The notes under the pieces were generated by a model. It did no database searches. It was not told the DNA's origin and saw nothing but the letters and a program-made list of their open reading frames with translations. From Sandaracinus sp. (GTDB lineage: Bacteria; Myxococcota_A; Polyangia; Polyangiales; Houyiibacteriaceae), in NCBI GenBank assembly GCA_002699025.1, contig PABA01000122.1:1-32752 (forward strand): 32,752 bases of DNA, read 5' to 3'. How positions within the stretch are numbered: the first letter of the stretch is position 1; each line of letters begins with the position of its first letter. The position numbers were made by a program, and so were the translations under genes. Below, piece after piece: positions 3,000 to 29,868 of this stretch.

Positions 3000-5900
3000 A
3001 TGCGCGCAGCGCGCCAGAGGGCGCGAGCCCGCGTCGCCGGGGCTCTCCTGGTCGCGCTGCTCGCCGCCTGTGGACCGACGGAGCCCTCCGAGCCGCGGAC
3101 GCCCGCCGAGCCGACGCCGACCTCACCGACCCCCGACGCCGGCCCCGCGCAGCCCCCCGCCCCGCCCTCCCCGACGGTCGAGGCGCCGCCCACGGAGGAG
3201 GTGCTCCTGGCGCGGGACGTCGCGCACCTCGAGGCGCTGCTCGCGGGGAACCTCCCGGAGAACGTCGAGCCCCGCACGCTCTTCCTGGTCGACCTCCTCG
3301 ACGAGGCGGCCTGCAACGCCCGCGCGACGACGCTCCGGGCCTCGCTCGGGCGCGCGCCGCCTCCCGTCGACGCCGGCATGCCGATGGACGCCGGCGTTCC
3401 CCTCGTCGACGCCGGCACCCTCGTCGACGCCGCCCTCGCGCTCCCGGACGGCGCCCTCCTCGCCGGCGCCCACCCCGAGGCCGGCGTGCCCCCCGACGGC
3501 GGCGCGGGCACGGCCGACGCCGGCGCATCGGCCCCCGCGGGAGGCGCGGACGCGGGCCCGCACCCAGACGGCGGCGCCCCCATCGTCGACGCCGGCGCGC
3601 CCGAGGAGGCCAGCGAGGAGGCCCGCGAGCCCGAGGCGAGCGCCGACGCGACGCCCGAAGCCGACGCGAGCACCATCGACGCGCTCCGCCGCCGCCGCGA
3701 CGAGCTCCGCCTCGCCTTCCTCGAGCTTCCCCCGGGCGAGCGCCGCGCCCTGCTCCGCGCCGTCGAGGTGGACCGGGCGCTCAGCCGCCGCGCCGCCGAG
3801 GCGCGCGCCGCCGAGATCGAGGCGGAGGAAGAGCGCCGGGTCGCCGAGGCCGAGCGGGCCGAGGCCGAGCTCCGCGCCGCCGCCGCCGCGACGCTCGCCG
3901 AGCAGCGCCGCGAGGCCCGCCGGGCCGAGGTCGCCGCCGTGCGCGCCGCCGTCGCCGAGGCGCTGGCCATCGCCGCGGCCGCCCGCGCCGAGGACGCCGA
4001 GAGCGAGCGCGAGCGCGCCGCGCGGGTCCACCGCATCGAAGCGCGGCTCCGGGAAGAGCTGGCGCCCGAGCGCGCCGCGGCCCTTTACGACGAGCTGGTC
4101 GCGCTCCTGGTCGCCATGCGCCGCGACCTCCGGGCCGCCCTCGACGCCACCGCCGAGCCGCTCCCGAGCCTCGAGCGCGACGCCGAGGACGCGCCGGACG
4201 TGGCCGCCGAGGTCGCCGCCGCGCGGGCGAGCCGCGCCGAGGCCCTCGCGACCCTGGACCGGCTCGCCTGGGAGCACGTCGAGGCCCTCGCCGAGGCGCT
4301 CCACGACGGCAACGACATCCGCCTCACGCTCCTCGAGCGCCTGCCCTCGGTCCGCGCCGACGCGCTCCAGACGCTCCTGCACGACGAGGGGCGCGCCCAG
4401 CTCCGCCGCGAGCTCTCCCAGCTCGAGCTCATGAGCCGCTACGCCGTGCGCCACGTCCGCCGCACCGCCCCCGGCTGGCCCGCGGCCATCCTCGCGCTCG
4501 GGCGCGAGCCCCGCAGCCGCCGCGACCTCTTCGCCCTCTTCGCGCTCCTCGGCGTCGTCGTCTTCGCCTTCCGCCGCCGCCTCGCCTTCGTCGACGCGCT
4601 CGAGGAGACGAGCACCCAGCGCATCGACTCGCGTCGCATGCGCCGCGTCGCGCAGGCCTGGTTCGCCCGCCTCCGCGTCGGCGCCGGGCCCCTCATCCTC
4701 CTCGCCGGGAGCGGCGTCGCCTTCGCCCTCGTCCTCGACATCCGCCACACGGCCGAGGTCGAGCTGCTGCGCACGCTCGTCCTCGCCTTCCTGGCCTACC
4801 GGCTCTTCGTGCGCCTGCTCCACCACGAGCTCACGCGCGGTCCGGTCCGGCGCATCGGCGGCCGCCGCATCCGCGTCCGCGCCCCGACCGCCCGGAGTCA
4901 GCGCGTGCTCTTCGACGTGCGCCGCGTCGGCCGCTACTTCTTCGCCCTCGTCGTCACCCTCGGCGCCGCCCAGCGCGTCGTCGGCGAGGGCACGCTCTAC
5001 GCGCAGCTCGTCCGCGTCTTCGTGCTCGTCGGCCTCGTCCTCGCCTACGTGCTGCTCCGGCGCTGGCGCGACGACATCGCCCGGGCCTTCGCCGAGTCGC
5101 ACCCGGACTCCCGCCTCGGCTCGCGCCTCGCCGACGCCTCCGGCCTCCGCCTCGACGCCCTCGCCGCCGTCGCCGCCGTCGAGCTCGGCGTGCGCCGGGC
5201 CCTCGAGGCGCTGCGCACCTTCGTCGTCCGCTTCGCCGCGGGCCGCCGCGCCATGGCCATGCTCTCGCGGCGCCGCCTCGAGCAGCGGCAGGCCGCCGAG
5301 CCCGAGGCCGAGGAGCCGCCCGAGCCGCGCGAGAAGCCGCAGCTCGCCGAGGCCTTCCCGCTCGGCCCGGCCCCGCTCGAGAGCTGCCTCGATCGCTTCC
5401 CGGAGCTCGACGCGATCACCGAGCTCGTGCGCCGGGTGAGCGAGGGCGGCCGGGGCGCCGCGGTGGCGCTCGTGGGCGAGGCCGGCGCCGGGAAGACGAC
5501 CTGGCTGCGTGCCCTCGTCGATCGGACCGAGGCGAGGACCTGGTGCCTCGAGGCGCCCCCGGCGGCCCACGACCAGTCCATCCTCTGCCGCTGGCTGAGC
5601 GAACAGCTCGAGCTCCCCGAGACCGAGAGCCCCGCGCGGCTCGCCCAGGAGATCGAGGAGGCCGAGCTCCGCGGGCTGATCTGCGTCGACGCGGGCGAGA
5701 ACCTCTTCCTGCGCTGCATCGGCGGCACGGAGGGCTTCCGCGCGCTCGGCGAGATCGTCGGGCGCACGCAGGAGCAGCTCGTCTGGGTCTGCGCGTTCTC
5801 GGCGAACGGCTGGCGCTACCTGCGCGCGGCCGAGGCCGGGCAGAGCCTCTTCGGGCGCGTCGTCTCGCTCGAGGGGTGGAGCGAGGAGGAGATCGCCGAC

Positions 5901-6419
5901 CTCGTCGAGCGGCGCATGCGCAAGCTCGGCCTCCGCGCCGACTTCGGCGCGCTCCTCGACACGGGCTCGACGCCGGGCACGGCGCTCGCGGGGCCGGCGC
6001 GGCAGCGGGCGCTCGAGCGGACGCGCGAGGAGTTCTTCCGGCTGCTCTGGGACGCCACGGACGGCAACCCGCGCCTGGTCGCGCACTTCTGGCTGCGCTC
6101 GCTCCAGCGCGACGAGGAGACCGGCGACCTGCGCGTGCGGCTCTTCGAGGCGCCGAGCCCGAGCGAGCTCGAGGCGCTCCACGACGAGTCGCGCTTCCTC
6201 CTGGCGGCCGTCGTCGTGCACGAGGACCTCAGCGCCGGCGAGGCCGCGCTCGTGCTCCGCTGGCCCATCGCCCGCTGCGCCGCGCTCCTCGACGTCCTCG
6301 CCGCACGCGGATTCCTGATGGAAGAGGAAGAGCGCCCCGGCCGCTTCCGCATCTCCGTCCAGTGGTTCCGCGCCATCCTCCGGCACCTCCGCCGCCGTCG
6401 CCTCCTCCCGCCCGCCTGA
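3000..6419 (+). CDS. Lipoprotein-type membrane protein with C-terminal P-loop ATPase
   Basis: Predicted 1139 aa. Order: signal peptide with lipobox LLAAC (Cys about 21); Pro/Thr/Glu linker; an Asp-Ala-Gly/Pro-rich stretch (about 121-204); a long Ala/Glu/Arg coiled coil (about 227-350) and further helical segment; about five membrane helices (near 510-526, 562-581, 590-608, 645-661, 671-687); then a cytoplasmic ATPase with Walker A GEAGAGKTT (Lys832) and Walker B LICVD (Asp897); last, a winged-helix-like C-terminus (about 1060-1130). The ATPase looks like the AAA/STAND class; the exact family is not recognised. The MscS channel gene starts 51 bp downstream on the same strand, so the two are probably co-transcribed. 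I infer a membrane complex in which ATP binding and a periplasmic domain control the channel. Start: ATG 3000 gives the lipoprotein signal; upstream in-frame codons add Arg-rich non-coding sequence. Confidence 0.8.
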   Translation: MRAARQRARARVAGALLVALLAACGPTEPSEPRTPAEPTPTSPTPDAGPAQPPAPPSPTVEAPPTEEVLLARDVAHLEALLAGNLPENVEPRTLFLVDLLDEAACNARATTLRASLGRAPPPVDAGMPMDAGVPLVDAGTLVDAALALPDGALLAGAHPEAGVPPDGGAGTADAGASAPAGGADAGPHPDGGAPIVDAGAPEEASEEAREPEASADATPEADASTIDALRRRRDELRLAFLELPPGERRALLRAVEVDRALSRRAAEARAAEIEAEEERRVAEAERAEAELRAAAAATLAEQRREARRAEVAAVRAAVAEALAIAAAARAEDAESERERAARVHRIEARLREELAPERAAALYDELVALLVAMRRDLRAALDATAEPLPSLERDAEDAPDVAAEVAAARASRAEALATLDRLAWEHVEALAEALHDGNDIRLTLLERLPSVRADALQTLLHDEGRAQLRRELSQLELMSRYAVRHVRRTAPGWPAAILALGREPRSRRDLFALFALLGVVVFAFRRRLAFVDALEETSTQRIDSRRMRRVAQAWFARLRVGAGPLILLAGSGVAFALVLDIRHTAEVELLRTLVLAFLAYRLFVRLLHHELTRGPVRRIGGRRIRVRAPTARSQRVLFDVRRVGRYFFALVVTLGAAQRVVGEGTLYAQLVRVFVLVGLVLAYVLLRRWRDDIARAFAESHPDSRLGSRLADASGLRLDALAAVAAVELGVRRALEALRTFVVRFAAGRRAMAMLSRRRLEQRQAAEPEAEEPPEPREKPQLAEAFPLGPAPLESCLDRFPELDAITELVRRVSEGGRGAAVALVGEAGAGKTTWLRALVDRTEARTWCLEAPPAAHDQSILCRWLSEQLELPETESPARLAQEIEEAELRGLICVDAGENLFLRCIGGTEGFRALGEIVGRTQEQLVWVCAFSANGWRYLRAAEAGQSLFGRVVSLEGWSEEEIADLVERRMRKLGLRADFGALLDTGSTPGTALAGPARQRALERTREEFFRLLWDATDGNPRLVAHFWLRSLQRDEETGDLRVRLFEAPSPSELEALHDESRFLLAAVVVHEDLSAGEAALVLRWPIARCAALLDVLAARGFLMEEEERPGRFRISVQWFRAILRHLRRRRLLPPA

Positions 6420-6470
6420 CCTGCCCGCCGGACCCGCCGGACCGTCGAGCCGCCCCCGAGTACGACGCCC

Positions 6471-7304
6471 ATGAACGAGAACCCCACCGAGCTGCTCCGC
6501 TTCCTCCGCGTCGAGGGCATCCTCCCGGCGCTGCTGGTGCTCGCCGCCGCCTGGGTCGCCGCGGGCTTCCTGACGCGCTCCTTCGCGCGCCTCTCCGAGC
6601 GCTTCCCGGACCGGCGGCTCCTGCTCAGCCAGTCCAAGGCGATCCTCCGGCTCGTCGTCTTCGCCATCGGCATCGGCGCCGCCGTGGGGCTGCTCTTCCG
6701 GCTGAGCGACGAGGCCCTGCTCGCCCTCGGCGGCACCATCGCCGTCGCCGTCGGCTTCGCCTTCAAGGATCTGATGGCGTCGATGATCGCGGGGATCATC
6801 ATCCTCATCGACCGGCCCTTCCAGGTCGGCGATCGGGTGAGCTTCGGCGGCTACTACGGGGAGATCGTCGAGATCGGCCTGCGCACGGTGCGGCTGGTGA
6901 CGCTCGACGACAGCCTGATCACGATCCCCAACAACAAGTTCCTCACGGACCCGGTCTCGAGCGGCAACGCGGGCGCGCTCGACATGCTGGTGCAGATCGA
7001 CTTCCACATCGGCGTCGACCAGGACCTCGCGCGCGCCAAGCGGCTGGTCGGCGAGGCGCTGGCCGCGAGCCGCTTCGCCTACCTCGAGAAGGCCTGGACC
7101 GTCGTCGTGAGCCCGGTCGTGCTGCAGAGCGTGCCGGCCATCCGCCTCCGCGCGAAGGTCTACGTGCTCGACGTGAAGTACGAGAAGGCGCTCGAGACGG
7201 ACGTCACCGAGCAGGTCATCGGCGCCTTCGCCGCGCACGGCATCCAACCCCCGGCGCTCCTCCACCGCGGCGTCGAGCCCGAAGCCGAAGAAGCCGCCGC
7301 CTGA
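6471..7304 (+). CDS. MscS-family mechanosensitive ion channel
   Basis: Predicted 277 aa. Small-conductance mechanosensitive channels open under membrane tension to release solutes during osmotic downshock. Three membrane helices are visible: residues 18-35, 58-78 and the Gly/Ala-rich pore helix from about 84 (GGTIAVAVGFAFKDLMASMI) leading into IDRPFQVGDRV. The beta domain signature follows (GEIVEIGLRTVRLVTLDDSL, then IPNNKFL), and the C-terminal alpha/beta domain runs to about 260. Length matches the short E. coli MscS type. The gene follows the large membrane ATPase by 51 bp with no terminator, so coupling to it is likely. MscS channels with a separate ATPase partner are not something I can name from the literature. 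Confidence 0.93.
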   Translation: MNENPTELLRFLRVEGILPALLVLAAAWVAAGFLTRSFARLSERFPDRRLLLSQSKAILRLVVFAIGIGAAVGLLFRLSDEALLALGGTIAVAVGFAFKDLMASMIAGIIILIDRPFQVGDRVSFGGYYGEIVEIGLRTVRLVTLDDSLITIPNNKFLTDPVSSGNAGALDMLVQIDFHIGVDQDLARAKRLVGEALAASRFAYLEKAWTVVVSPVVLQSVPAIRLRAKVYVLDVKYEKALETDVTEQVIGAFAAHGIQPPALLHRGVEPEAEEAAA

Positions 7305-8294: not shown

Positions 8295-8780
8295 TCAGAG
8301 CGCGCCTTCGATGGCGCTCACGACCTCCTCCGAGGTCGGCGCCGCCGTGGGCGCGAAGCGGGCGACGACCTGGCCGTCCTTGCCGATGACGAACTTCGCG
8401 AAGTTCCAGGCGATGTCGCCGGAGCCGTCGGGCTGCGCGTCCTCGGCCGTGAGCCAGGCGTAGAGCGGGTGGCGGCCGTCGCCGTTGACCTCGAGCTTCG
8501 AGAACATCGGGAAGGTCACGCCGTAGTTCGTGGAGCAGAAGCTCTGGATCTCGGCCTCCGTGCCGGGCTCCTGGCCACCGAACTGGTTGCAGGGGAAACC
8601 GAGCACGGCGAAGCCGCGATCCTCCAGCGAGTCGTGGAGCTTCTGCAGGCCTTCGTACTGCGGCGTGAGCCCGCACTTCGAGGCCACGTTGACCACGAGG
8701 CAGACCTGCCCCTCGAAGTCCTTCAGGCTCTTGTCCTGCCCGTCGATGGTCTTCAGCGTGAAGTCGTGGAGCGTCGTCAT
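8295..8780 (-). CDS. gpx: Glutathione peroxidase family protein (Cys type)
   Basis: Predicted 161 aa. The enzyme reduces hydroperoxides using thiols; bacterial Cys-type members often use thioredoxin. The family motifs are complete: VNVASKCGLTPQY with peroxidatic Cys36, LGFPCNQFGGQEPG with Gln70 (the conserved Gln of the tetrad) and Cys64, and DIAWNFAKF with the conserved Trp and Asn. Cys64 lies where a resolving Cys can occur in thioredoxin-dependent members. No signal peptide, so cytoplasmic. ATG 8780 is favoured by TACGCA 7 nt upstream. It stands alone and is convergent with the TPR-like gene. Confidence 0.95.
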   Translation of the reverse strand: MTTLHDFTLKTIDGQDKSLKDFEGQVCLVVNVASKCGLTPQYEGLQKLHDSLEDRGFAVLGFPCNQFGGQEPGTEAEIQSFCSTNYGVTFPMFSKLEVNGDGRHPLYAWLTAEDAQPDGSGDIAWNFAKFVIGKDGQVVARFAPTAAPTSEEVVSAIEGAL

Positions 8781-8787
8781 GGGCCCG

Positions 8788-8793
8788 TGCGTA
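8788..8793 (-). promoter_or_regulatory. gpx: Possible -10 hexamer of the peroxidase gene
   Basis: TACGCA on the minus strand ends 7 nt before ATG 8780. No Shine-Dalgarno is present, so a leaderless transcript is likely if this hexamer is used. Confidence 0.4.
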
Positions 8794-8891
8794 GGGCCGG
8801 GTCCCGGCGAGCGCCAGCGCCGGCGAGTTACGCGCGTCAACGCGCGCGCCGAACCCGTGCCCGTGGCCATGCCCGTTCTCGACGCGAGGCC

Positions 8892-9157
8892 GCGTGACCG
8901 AAGAACGGCTTCACCGAGGACGAACGGGCCCCTCGCTCTCGCCCCGCACACCCCGCGCCCGAGAGAGCCCCTCGCGCCCCGTTCACCCGCGGGCAGGGGC
9001 AGGGGCAGGGGCACGGGCACGGGCGCGTGACCGAAGAACGGCTTCACCGAGGACGAACGGCCCCTCGCTCTCGCCCCGCACACCCTGCGCCCCGAGAGAG
9101 CGCCCTCGCGCCCCGTTCACCCGCGGGCAGGGGCACGGGCACGGGCACGGGCACGGG
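8892..9157. repeat. 133-bp tandem duplication with G-rich tails
   Basis: Two copies (8892-9024 and 9025-9157) both begin GCGTGACCGAAGAACGGCTT and end in short runs of GGGGCA / GGGCAC units. The G-runs (four or more GGG tracts within about 30 nt in each copy) could form quadruplexes. CCCGTG-type units just upstream (about 8856-8876) are complementary to the G-rich tails. The second copy stops 3 bp before the stop codon of the gene at 9161. The stretch 8781-9160 has no gene. Confidence 0.85.
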
Positions 9158-25851: not shown

Positions 25852-27540
25852 TCAAGTATCGAGCGAGCCGATGGCGGCCGCGGCATACTCGCCGTGGACC
25901 GTCTTCAGGCTCGTGAGCTTGCCTTCAAGTCGGTCGAGCAGACCCATCAACTTTTCGACCTTGGCCACAATACGATGCTGCTCCGCGAGTGGCGGGAACG
26001 GAATGATGGTCGATCGGACGGTTTGCTGGTTGACCTTCACCATTGACTGCGACGTACCGCTGGCTTTATCGGAAAACCAAGACCGGTTGTAGGGAGCGAT
26101 CAAAGCCAAGTGCACAAACTCAACTGAGAGTCGTTCAGACACTCGGCACCGCATCATCAAGTCGGGATAAATGAACGTGCGCTCGGGACCATCGAAGATA
26201 GCTGCAATCCCTACGTACTGCGGTGTGTTTGACCGCTGGATCAGCAGGTCTCTCGGCCTCAGCCAAAGCGGCGAGTTGTCGTCCAGATCTGCTTCTACGA
26301 ACTTGAAGTGACGACCGTCGAAATGACCACGGGTCGTCGCACTCAACTTGAGTGTGCGAACGCCCGTATCATGGTCCACCGACCTTGGTGACCATCCATT
26401 GGTGGGTCCGTCAGCGAGACAGTGGCCGAGTCGTATCCAACTCCAGCTCCTCGGAACCTCGAACGGAGCCTCCTCCTTCGCCACGGGGGGGAGGGGCTTG
26501 GACTTTCGGACCTTCTTCTCCGCGACCAGCTGAGCTTTGTCGGCCGCGACCCTCCGCAACAGGTCAATCGTCGCCTCTTCCTCCGCGTCCTGCCGTACCA
26601 ACCGCCCACGTACGGCGAGTTGGAGCACTGTCTGGCGCAGCGGCTCCACGTCGGCGGGGTCGGTGAAGAGGTCGTCCATCCGCTCGGCGATACGCTGCCA
26701 GGCGGCCTCGACTTCCTCAGCGGAGTCGGCGTCTCGGAGCGCGGCGAGGGCTGCGTCGCGCAGGGCGACGCGGGTGGCCTCGCGGGAGTCGCGGGCCGCC
26801 TCGAGCCGATCGATGAGGGCCATGAGCTCGTCGACCTTGGCGACGATGCGCTGCTGCTCTCCTAGAGGTGGAAGGGGGATCGGAAGGTCTACCATCTTCC
26901 TTTGGGTGAGCTTGAGGCGCGTGGTGCCGCTCACGAACCCGTCGTAGTTGCATTGATTCAGGGCGTGGCAGAGGAACCGGTTGACGCCCGCCAGCATGCG
27001 CAGCGCGTGGGCGTGGTTGTTCACCCAAAAGCGACCCGAGACCACGTATGCGACGTGCTTACCATTCTTGAAGAATGGTGCTCCGTCCTCACCCAGCAGC
27101 ACGAGCTCCTCGTCGAAGAGGTAGTCGTCAATCCATCCGGCGCGCTGTGTCGCGCCGTAATACGGGAACAACGCCGACTTGGGCTTGCCTGCAATGCGAG
27201 CTTCTCGGTCTGCCTTCTTGACTGGCTGACGGATGAAGTCGAGCACCGCAACGATATCGCCTAGGCGAACCCACTCCCAGGTCGTGGGAATCGCATGGGG
27301 CGCGTCTGTGCTGGCGAGTGCCCGCACGTTCATCGGCTTCTTGATCTCGCCGGCACTGTACAGGCGCCGCTGCTCCTCTCTGGCCGCTCGGAGCATCGCG
27401 CTGGCTGGCTCGTTGCGGGGATCCTGCGGGACCAGCTGCCCGCGGACCGCCAGTTCCAACACCAACTCGCGTAGCCGCATTGGGCCGTCGGGAGAACCAG
27501 CTAGCGCCTCAAGAGCGGGCATAAGCCTGCCAGGCGTCAC
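25852..27540 (-). CDS. hsdS: Type I restriction-modification specificity subunit
   Basis: Predicted 562 aa. HsdS recognises a split DNA sequence and holds the methylase and nuclease subunits. Two target-recognition domains are visible, each closed by a conserved helix start: PIPLPPLGEQQRIVAKVDEL (about 232-251) and PFPPLAEQHRIVAKVEKL near the C-terminus. Each half begins with a similar LRELVLELAVRGQLV / LRQTVLQLAVRGRLV region, the internal duplication typical of HsdS. The GTG start overlaps the hsdM stop as GTGA, so translation is coupled; ATG 27522 is an internal alternative. The gene is visibly less GC-rich than the rest of the window, most so in the recognition domains. The length is above the common 400-470 aa, due to the extra N-terminal and linker regions. 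Confidence 0.95.
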   Translation of the reverse strand: MTPGRLMPALEALAGSPDGPMRLRELVLELAVRGQLVPQDPRNEPASAMLRAAREEQRRLYSAGEIKKPMNVRALASTDAPHAIPTTWEWVRLGDIVAVLDFIRQPVKKADREARIAGKPKSALFPYYGATQRAGWIDDYLFDEELVLLGEDGAPFFKNGKHVAYVVSGRFWVNNHAHALRMLAGVNRFLCHALNQCNYDGFVSGTTRLKLTQRKMVDLPIPLPPLGEQQRIVAKVDELMALIDRLEAARDSREATRVALRDAALAALRDADSAEEVEAAWQRIAERMDDLFTDPADVEPLRQTVLQLAVRGRLVRQDAEEEATIDLLRRVAADKAQLVAEKKVRKSKPLPPVAKEEAPFEVPRSWSWIRLGHCLADGPTNGWSPRSVDHDTGVRTLKLSATTRGHFDGRHFKFVEADLDDNSPLWLRPRDLLIQRSNTPQYVGIAAIFDGPERTFIYPDLMMRCRVSERLSVEFVHLALIAPYNRSWFSDKASGTSQSMVKVNQQTVRSTIIPFPPLAEQHRIVAKVEKLMGLLDRLEGKLTSLKTVHGEYAAAAIGSLDT

Positions 27541-29066
27541 GCCCTACCCTCCAGCGCCGCGGCCAGCGCTTGCCGTATTTCCTCACGGATTGCCGCAGCC
27601 GCAGCTTGCTCCTTCTCGTAGCGAGCGAGCAACACGTCGGGATCCTCGTGCTTGTCCTCCGGCGCGTTCGGGTTGGGGATGTCGAGGTTGAAGTCGCGCT
27701 CGCGGATCTCGTTGATGCTCACCTTCCAGGCGAGCTCTGTCTCCTTGCGCTTCTTCCACCACTTCTTCTCGGGCTCGAACTCCTCGATCCGCATGGGCTT
27801 TGTCTTTGAGTACGACTTGTAGCCCTCCGGGTAGGGGTGCTCGTAGTACCAGATCGTCTTGGTAGGCTTCCCCTTCTCGAAGAAGAGAATGTTCGTGTTG
27901 ATGGTCGTGTATGGCGCGAAGACACCCTTGGGAAGTCGAACGATCGTGTGGAGGTTGCAGGTCTCCAGCAGTCGCTCCTTCATCCTCGTCTTCATGCCCT
28001 CGCCGAAGAGCGTCCCATCCGGCAGGACGATGGCTGCGCGGCCTCCAGGCTTCAGAAGCTCCATGATGAGGACGAGGAAGAGGTCGGCCGTCTCTCGCGT
28101 CCGGAAGTCGAGCGGGAAGTTCGCCTCGATGCCGTCCTCCTCCATGCCCCCGAACGGCGGGTTGGTGAGGATGACGTCCACGCGATCCCGCATCGTGATG
28201 TCCCGCAGCGGACGAGCGAGTGTGTTGTCGTGGGCGATGCCGGTCGGCACATCGATTCCGTGGACCACCATGTTGGTCACGCAGAGGAGGTGCGGCAGCG
28301 GCTTCTTCTCAACGCCACGAATGCTCGCCTGGAGCTGCTCCTCCTGCTCGGGCGTCTTCACGTCCTTCTTGCGGATGTGCTCGATGGCGCAGGTCAAGAA
28401 GCCACCCGTCCCACACGCCGGGTCGAGCACGGTCTCGCCGAGGCGGGGGTCGACCATGTCGACCGCGAACTGGGTCACGGCGCGCGGGGTGTAGTACTCA
28501 CCCGCGTTCCCCGCGCTCTGCAGATCCTTGAGGAGCTTCTCGTAGATGTCGCCGAACAGGTGGCGGTTCGTCGCGTCGTTGAAGTCGATGTCCGACTCGA
28601 TCTTGTTGATCACCTGCCGGAGCAGCGTCCCGGACTTCATGTACTGGTAGGCGTCCTCGAAGACCGAGCGGATCAACGCCCGACGTCGCCGGAGCGCTCG
28701 AGCGGCGAATGCTTCCGCATCGTCCCCGTCGATCTTGGGCCCGAGCTCCATGTCCTTGAGCGCGGGAAAGAGCGTGTCGTTGACGAACTCCAGCAGCTTG
28801 TCGCCCGTATCCCCCTCGGGATCGGACGCCCAGGAGCGCCACCGGAGGTCCTCGATCTCCCAGCTCTCCCCGCCGCTTTGCCAAGTCACGTTCATGAGCG
28901 GCGACGCGAAGTCATCTTCTAGTAGCTCTAGCTCCTGCTCGCGATCGTCCCAGATCTTCAGGAAGAGCAGCCACACGAGCTGCCCCACCCGCTGCGCATC
29001 CCCGTCGACGCCGACGTCTTTGCGCATGATGTCCTGGATGGACTTGATGGTCGTGGTCAGTGCCAT
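27537..29066 (-). CDS. hsdM: Type I restriction-modification DNA methyltransferase
   Basis: Predicted 509 aa. It methylates adenine (N6) in the site read by HsdS and is needed for restriction. Seen: the HsdM N-terminal helical domain (residues 1-150, LVWLLFLKIWDDREQE), AGEYYTPRAV (188-197), SAM-binding motif I DPACGTGGFL (215-224) and catalytic NPPF (302-305). The C-terminal region ends in a Glu/Ala helix that should contact HsdS. ATG 29066 gives the standard N-terminus (MALTTTIKSIQDIMRKD); longer frames to 29297 are not family-like. AGGAG lies 11 nt upstream. The stop overlaps the hsdS start by 4 bp. Confidence 0.97.
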   Translation of the reverse strand: MALTTTIKSIQDIMRKDVGVDGDAQRVGQLVWLLFLKIWDDREQELELLEDDFASPLMNVTWQSGGESWEIEDLRWRSWASDPEGDTGDKLLEFVNDTLFPALKDMELGPKIDGDDAEAFAARALRRRRALIRSVFEDAYQYMKSGTLLRQVINKIESDIDFNDATNRHLFGDIYEKLLKDLQSAGNAGEYYTPRAVTQFAVDMVDPRLGETVLDPACGTGGFLTCAIEHIRKKDVKTPEQEEQLQASIRGVEKKPLPHLLCVTNMVVHGIDVPTGIAHDNTLARPLRDITMRDRVDVILTNPPFGGMEEDGIEANFPLDFRTRETADLFLVLIMELLKPGGRAAIVLPDGTLFGEGMKTRMKERLLETCNLHTIVRLPKGVFAPYTTINTNILFFEKGKPTKTIWYYEHPYPEGYKSYSKTKPMRIEEFEPEKKWWKKRKETELAWKVSINEIRERDFNLDIPNPNAPEDKHEDPDVLLARYEKEQAAAAAIREEIRQALAAALEGRA

Positions 29067-29079
29067 GTGGCCAACGCTC

Positions 29080-29868
29080 CTAGCAGGAGAACGAGGTCGG
29101 TCGGTGAGAGGGCCAGCTGAGCTGGGAGGTGCAGCCGCGGGCATGGAGCTCAATAAGGGCGAAGCACCAGCTTCGTCCCGGCAGAGCGAGTTCCCAGCTC
29201 GCGCGGCACGCGAGGCGGAGCTCATCTCGACATGCCACAGGTGTCCGTAGGTGCCTGTTCGGCGACCGCCCCCAAGCGAGCAGTCCACGCAGCGCATCTC
29301 GTCCGGTCACGGTGGCGACGTGATTCGAGAGCTTTGGCTTGGTCGGCCTTGGGGTCTGCCCCCGCGTCCCCCCTCGCGACGACCATTGGATCGGAAGATG
29401 CGCCTGGCGCAGCTGCCTGAGAGTCGCGCTGAACTTCACCCGTTCACCGCCCAGAGCGAGGAAGGTGCGAACGGAGCGGTTGTCCCCGGTCGTCCCCCTT
29501 GATAGCGCCAGCTTCCACACATCCTGCGCGACACGTTTGGCCTTCTGCTGCTTGAGCCACTTCAGCTCGCATGCGAGCCCTGCGTCGTCGTCGGATTCGA
29601 TGAAGACGTCGTGCTGAATCGTGCGGCCCTGGCCTACGGAGCCGTGAGTTGCCGTTTTCCAGCAGGGTCGACCGTTCCACGAAACGGTTCGCTCCACGTG
29701 AACGCGGTCGGCCAGCGAGGGGCGAGCGAGGATGAGGCCGTCAACGAACGAGGAGCGGACTCGCTCTTCCGACATGTAGCGGGTTGAGCGTGCCATCTCG
29801 GCCAGAAGCATGCCGTTGGTGAAGGTGAACGCATCCCTCATCCAAGCCGTGTACTCGCCCCCGTTCAC
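29080..29868 (-). CDS. PD-(D/E)XK-nuclease-like gene inside the hsd operon
   Basis: Predicted 262 aa. It sits between hsdR (stop 29870) and hsdM (start 29066); its GTG start lies 1 bp after the hsdR TAA, so it is translationally linked. The core resembles PD-(D/E)XK nucleases: Glu59 in a VHVERTV strand, Asp87 in TIQHDVFI, then ACELKWLK with Glu101-x-Lys103, and QDVWKLAL with Gln115 on the next helix, in the right order and spacing. No known HsdR-type helicase motif is present. The last 100 residues are Arg/Leu-rich with no family features. It could be an accessory nuclease, an inactivated one, or an unrelated fold with a coincidental motif. Confidence 0.72.
   Translation of the reverse strand: MNGGEYTAWMRDAFTFTNGMLLAEMARSTRYMSEERVRSSFVDGLILARPSLADRVHVERTVSWNGRPCWKTATHGSVGQGRTIQHDVFIESDDDAGLACELKWLKQQKAKRVAQDVWKLALSRGTTGDNRSVRTFLALGGERVKFSATLRQLRQAHLPIQWSSRGGTRGQTPRPTKPKLSNHVATVTGRDALRGLLAWGRSPNRHLRTPVACRDELRLACRASWELALPGRSWCFALIELHARGCTSQLSWPSHRPTSFSC

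Follow-up and report, generated by a model that had tools for sequence, protein, structure and literature searches.

We identified, in a 32,752-nucleotide stretch of Sandaracinus sp. DNA (the whole stretch analyzed, referred to here as the window; contig C133 of a 9.24-Mb genome), a two-gene unit in which a predicted membrane-anchored AAA+ ATPase (gene 1; product, P0001) is followed directly by a small mechanosensitive channel of the MscS family (gene 2; product, P0002). The two genes are nearly inseparable across diverse bacteria, which suggests an undescribed, ATPase-controlled version of the osmotic safety valve. MscS-type channels are a model of gating by force; where their regulation is known, it is exerted by domains that form part of the channel chain. 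If the reading is true, many bacteria put this valve under active control by a nucleotide state or an envelope sensor. The preliminary description of this DNA knew of no MscS gated by ATP or by an AAA/STAND sensor; in the open-licence literature, we found no description of an ATPase-MscS pair.

Linkage of the ATPase and MscS genes

The membrane and ATPase half of P0001, used as a query, had relatives in 16 of 38 related genomes, and a profile of 15 sequences matched in 281 of the 379 genomes of the phylum (>100 strong matches). About 115 matched loci were taken, and a profile built from the paired MscS proteins was run against their open reading frames (ORFs). We refer to loci that resemble the window's, with the membrane and ATPase halves both present, as class 1. 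In 94 of the 97 class-1 loci of the phylum, an MscS gene followed immediately in the same orientation. Of the three exceptions, two were contig ends, and the third (L116/L232) carried a 700-aa lipoprotein-like ORF inserted between the ATPase and MscS genes. The search from the MscS side (paired-MscS profile, GTDB genomes) gave a similar picture: 77 of the 80 named loci had the ATPase directly upstream, and the exceptions were the inserted case (L232) and two solo MscS genes without a trace of the ATPase (L201 and L224). Homologues of the two genes therefore hardly ever occur apart. The ATPase-side and MscS-side sets overlap partly and are not fully independent because some contigs represent the same assemblies. 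The window's genome contains 13 MscS genes in 9.24 Mb; because MscS genes are so few, the probability of a chance adjacency is well under one in a hundred, and the pairing is far beyond chance.

At the tightest junctions of the near set, the genes overlap by 4 bp (ATGA), and the widest gap is 51 bp; the 4-bp overlap or gaps of <15 bp are frequent. The window has the 51-bp gap (positions 6420-6470, + strand), in which no terminator-like site was seen. The two proteins were encoded by separate ORFs in all of the loci examined, and no fused ATPase-MscS protein was found. The 7-kb flanks of the loci contained no third conserved gene beside the pair. Recurrent neighbor clusters were considered as a third partner and rejected; they occupied scattered positions and looked like kinase/regulator families and antisense shadow ORFs.

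Some loci had additional features. One ATPase gene was followed by two tandem MscS genes in a Caulobacter plasmid (L236:3224-7646) and in L102 (genome G178); the second MscS of L236 was much more divergent. A CorA-like magnesium transporter gene was located near the pair in four loci (L203, L204, L227, and L171), three of which are close relatives.

Architecture of the two proteins

Gene 1 (3000-6419, + strand) is a single-copy gene in the window's genome and encodes 1,139 aa. Its homologues in a relative are 59 to 66% identical, and we therefore regard it as a real gene. An AlphaFold2 model of P0001 based on 63 relatives had a mean pLDDT of 85.6 and a pTM of 0.70. Together with the sequence and Pfam, it bore out the layout proposed in the preliminary description (i.e., lipobox, Asp-Ala-Gly linker, periplasmic helices, about five membrane helices, Lys832, Asp897, and winged helix).

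The protein begins with a signal peptide and the lipobox LLAAC (3000-3071, +; Cys24 at 3069-3071). The lipobox Cys is present in near relatives only, and distant members have ordinary Sec signal peptides. We dropped a reading of the lipobox as an outer-membrane tether because of these plain signal peptides. Short ordered periplasmic helices follow (aa 66-116; 3195-3347, +; pLDDT of about 90 or more), in which the alignment revealed the family motif LxALLAGxLPxxVxPxTLFxVDLxD. A periplasmic mini-motif, LxGxLDxxxDPxxLFxVDL, occurs once in the window (3225-3293) and twice in L036 to L038; this repetition might point to an element used in sensing or in assembly. The disordered linker rich in Asp, Ala, and Gly (aa 125-217; 3372-3650, +; pLDDT under 50) is likewise limited to near relatives and is not conserved in the alignment of distant members. 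It leads into a region of long periplasmic helices (aa 223-502; 3666-4505, +; pLDDT 93).

Next come about five membrane helices (aa 506-688; 4515-5063, +), probably located at about aa 506-524, 560-578, 589-607, 640-660, and 668-686, with a conserved periplasmic turn, VGxGxLY, at aa 661-667. Modeled alone, aa 220-772 also had a pLDDT of 93. Given an odd number of membrane helices and a secreted N terminus, the predicted topology makes the ATPase cytoplasmic, so that it shares a compartment with the cage of MscS. No Pfam, NCBIfam, or PADLOC family covered the N-terminal region in model searches.

Gene 2 (6471-7304, + strand) encodes a 277-aa member of the MscS family (PF00924; E value of 1.2e-19, above the cutoff), as had been noted for the gene lying 51 bp after the large one. 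Its three membrane helices (aa 8-26, 50-68, and 83-101), the last of them in the place of the pore-lining TM3, precede the beta domain, an arrangement like that of small MscS channels such as E. coli YggB. MscS structures matched profile positions 16 to 263 of the paired channel, and the closest PDB entries were MscS, MscK, YnaI, and MscM. Unlike small MscS channels, P0002 has a dedicated ATPase gene alongside, and its subfamily is largely made of such pairs. At matched beta-domain identity, the C-terminal domain of paired channels had an identity of 0.39 versus 0.32, a slight excess that would be weakly compatible with contact.

An Orc/STAND-type ATPase domain

The putative Orc/STAND-type AAA+ domain of P0001 spans aa 776-1054 (5325-6161, +). 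AAA_22 was the sole Pfam model above its curated cutoff (31.8 bits versus 27) and matched 14 of 15 relatives; matches to AAA_16, NACHT, and nSTAND models were weaker. Specifically, nSTAND_NTPase5 (19.1 versus 34) and NACHT (19 versus 26.7) stayed below their cutoffs, as did NB-ARC, and nSTAND1 reached 24.6 versus 27.1. The top Foldseek match of the domain was Cdc6/Orc1 (1fnn; E value of 8.7e-8), and VIA-align matched it with TnsC and Orc at Z scores of about 14 to 16 over roughly 230 to 290 residues (TnsC, 15.7).

Conserved motifs agree with these matches. Walker A (GEAGAGKT, G826-T833; 5475-5498, +) retains its Lys, Lys832, in 122 of 135 class-1 members, and the Walker B position, Asp897 (5688-5690, +), is Asp or Glu in 130 of 135. 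A GxP motif (G1022-N-P1024; 6063-6071, +) precedes the winged helix, with the Gly present in all 135 members and the Pro in 133. The winged-helix domain (aa 1062-1132; 6183-6395, +), predicted from secondary structure and Cdc6/Orc matches, forms the end of the protein. By its sequence, GxP motif, and predicted fold, the domain can be assigned to the Cdc6/Orc-TnsC-STAND clade. The P-loop region accordingly falls, according to Foldseek, VIA-align, and Pfam, among switch ATPases and not in a family with a fixed unrelated role.

P0001 shares the AAA+ fold, Walker A, the Walker B Asp, the GxP motif, and the winged helix with this clade (1fnn, 2qby, and 7mbw; Apaf-1, 3shf). It differs from these ATPases in being membrane anchored, in having a channel partner, and in having its sensor region at the N terminus; sensor repeats (TPR, WD, or LRR) were not detected at its C terminus, and on this count and by its Pfam scores it is not a STAND ATPase in the narrow meaning of the term. 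Its Walker B strand, ICVDAGEN, has no Glu directly after Asp897, and this Glu is usually absent across the family. Such a site would be more in keeping with a switch that binds nucleotide than with rapid hydrolysis.

The P-loop Lys has been lost in 13 of the 135 class-1 members (about 10%), including a branch of Vibrio and Psychromonas, and at least 12 of these 13 retain the MscS neighbor. Since the Lys is lost in this fraction while the clade retains MscS, ATP control of the pair is unlikely to be universal. The Lys is replaced by Thr (GERGxGTTT) in L225, L212, and L233, from Vibrio proteolyticus and Psychromonas, all of which retain the MscS partner. This Lys-to-Thr branch offers a natural test of the need for ATP.

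Distribution and module variants

The pair was found in Myxococcota, Acidobacteriota, Alpha- and Gammaproteobacteria, Lentisphaerota, and apparently one archaeon; named hosts include Solimonas, Paraperlucidibaca, Psychromonas, Thalassomonas, Vibrio proteolyticus, Hyphomonas, Croceicoccus, and Lentisphaera. RefSeq names the products "AAA family ATPase" or "ATP-binding protein" and "mechanosensitive ion channel family protein." In a quick tree of the ATPase, Acidobacteriota formed one clade, and about ten changes of phylum sufficed to explain the labels, whereas shuffled labels needed far more. We read this tree as that of an old pair with some transfer.

Relatives sharing the ATPase domain alone comprised two further types, and 15 of their 20 loci were beside MscS; two of the remaining five were contig ends. 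In class 2 (L140, L143, L044, and L045), the protein starts with an Na+/H+ exchanger domain (PF00999) and ends with the ATPase. These ORFs (L140:1016-5884; L143:2612-7384; L044:4293-8840, - strand; L045:2-3688) encode about 1,200 to 1,650 aa, with a long soluble region of about 750 residues between exchanger and ATPase, and a divergent MscS is usually next. Class 2 is possibly an antiporter-ATPase-channel system. Class 3 proteins (L141, L145, and L148) have no membrane helix. A haloarchaeal plasmid (Salinirubellus; NZ_CP147842.1; L238:3889-5690) encodes a minimal version: a soluble ATPase-like protein of 331 aa whose P-loop is degenerate and whose gene overlaps the MscS gene by 4 bp.

From these comparisons, the constant core is the ATPase plus MscS, with a variable N-terminal part, and not an MscK split into two. 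Since the N terminus varies while the ATPase and MscS are constant, it is presumably the cytoplasmic ATPase domain that works with, and needs, the channel.

A proposed regulatory system and its alternatives

We consider it probable, with some reserve, that the pair is a dedicated two-protein system in which a nucleotide-switch sensor subunit regulates its cognate MscS. The periplasmic and membrane helices of the large protein would receive an envelope signal (tension, periplasmic ions, or cell-wall state), the cytoplasmic AAA+ domain would switch between nucleotide states, and its contact with the cytoplasmic cage or the membrane paddles of MscS would change the ease of channel opening. Where the P-loop Lys has been lost, the ATPase would regulate the channel by its structure alone. 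The domains, the gene order, the near-obligate pairing across phyla, and the conserved P-loop and GxP motif are observed; we infer that the two proteins touch, that nucleotides drive the switch, what kind of signal is read, and which way the channel responds. In favor of the system are the linkage in both directions, the short distances between the genes, the spread of the pair across phyla and its minimal haloarchaeal form, the absence of a third conserved gene, the switch-ATPase motifs and fold, and the position of the ATPase on the cage side. Against it are the lack of a fusion, the loss of the P-loop Lys in 13 class-1 members, the missing Glu after Asp897, the two solo MscS genes, and the slightness of the excess conservation in the MscS C-terminal domain. 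Like MscS itself, some members of the Orc/STAND clade are heptameric, and the AAA+ and MscS rings may match. A precedent for an MscS pore under a nucleotide-binding module is provided by bCNG-type channels, in which the cyclic-nucleotide-binding domain is fused to the channel, unlike the separate AAA+ protein here. More tentatively, and with somewhat less than even confidence, we propose that the pairs represent an old class of MscS channels under nucleotide control that spans phyla. In this class, an Orc/STAND AAA+ ring would dock on the cage and set the threshold, and different signals would enter through exchangeable N-terminal modules (a periplasmic helical sensor, an Na+/H+ exchanger, or no module at all). 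The existence of cultured members (Solimonas marina, Paraperlucidibaca baekdonensis, Psychromonas marina, Vibrio proteolyticus, and Novosphingobium pentaromativorans) makes the idea open to experiment.

The preliminary description had raised the possibility of a split, ATP-dependent MscK-like system. In a split MscK, the large protein would supply a periplasmic ring and sensor helices around the MscS core, with an added ATPase that is perhaps a minor regulator. MscK (KefA) of E. coli (PDB 7uw5/7ux1) has eleven membrane helices and no ATPase (PMC9653487). As in MscK, an MscS core is accompanied by additional membrane helices and, N-terminal to them, by a large helical domain in the periplasm; unlike in MscK, where these parts share one chain with the core, they are on a separate chain. 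Because its parts sit on two chains, the window's system is not an MscK by definition. VIA-align placed residues 77-471 of the N-terminal model on E. coli MscK 286-680 (Z score of 8.8; no other listed alignment was longer than its 273 residues), and hhalign matched a 62-sequence family profile with the TM1-3 region of an MscK/MscM profile (70%; E value of 4.1e-5), with model residues 288-422 on MscK 507-631. The two alignments share a residue offset of about 209 to 219. E. coli MscK alone scored 34.5, compared with a decoy mean of 15.3 (standard deviation, 3.9). However, the best decoy reached 33.1 and the reversed MscK profile 33.8 (versus 43.9 for the real profile), Foldseek gave the model of aa 220-772 no significant match (MscK ranked fourth, with an E value of 1.0), and no fold stood clear of the rest in the VIA-align list. 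Furthermore, Pfam MscS_porin and MscS_TM matched none of the 62 members, and class 2 and 3 relatives retain MscS without the region in question. Homology of P0001 aa 507-641 to MscK TM1-3, being near the decoy range, is suggestive only. The original proposal is partly supported: two of the outcomes that would have told against it, separate occurrence of the genes and a P-loop family of fixed unrelated role, did not arise, and the two MscK alignments match in register. The scores close to those of decoys and the variable N terminus tell against a split MscK, which we regard as rather unlikely.

Other roles for the pair seem still less likely than a split MscK. In stress or antiphage defense, the ATPase would sense infection or damage to the envelope in the manner of STAND proteins and use MscS as an effector that depolarizes or leaks the cell; the Orc/STAND-type domain with its weak nSTAND/NACHT similarity, the variable N-terminal sensors on a constant ATPase-channel core, the occurrence of the pair on some plasmids, and a type I methylase encoded in the window at a distance of about 20 kb are in keeping with this role. 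Yet PADLOC gave no convincing match (best E value, 0.037, to the P-loop only), recurrent defense neighbors were absent from the 7-kb flanks, and a phage homologue was not found. A role in envelope or osmotic physiology agrees better with the secreted periplasmic region and with a broad inheritance that follows clades, making defense an improbable function. We give similarly little credence to the ATPase being an assembly or quality control factor that inserts or stabilizes its MscS instead of taking part in gating: the AAA+ fold and obligate pairing would suit such a factor, but a large conserved periplasmic and membrane sensor region would not, clades with a dead P-loop retain the pair, and protease or peptide-threading features were not seen. 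Finally, both genes might answer the same stress and be cotranscribed without contact, consistent with the 51-bp gap in the window and the lack of fusions; near-obligate pairing across phyla without a third conserved gene argues against mere neighborhood, which we consider very improbable. The dedicated two-protein system is the reading that we prefer.

Other genes in the window

The pair is followed downstream by a glutathione peroxidase gene in the opposite orientation (8295-9083, - strand). Farther away, the window encodes an HsdM-type N6 DNA methylase (27537-29297, - strand; PF02384, E value of 3e-78), and the same-strand ORFs beside it suggest a type I restriction-modification block.
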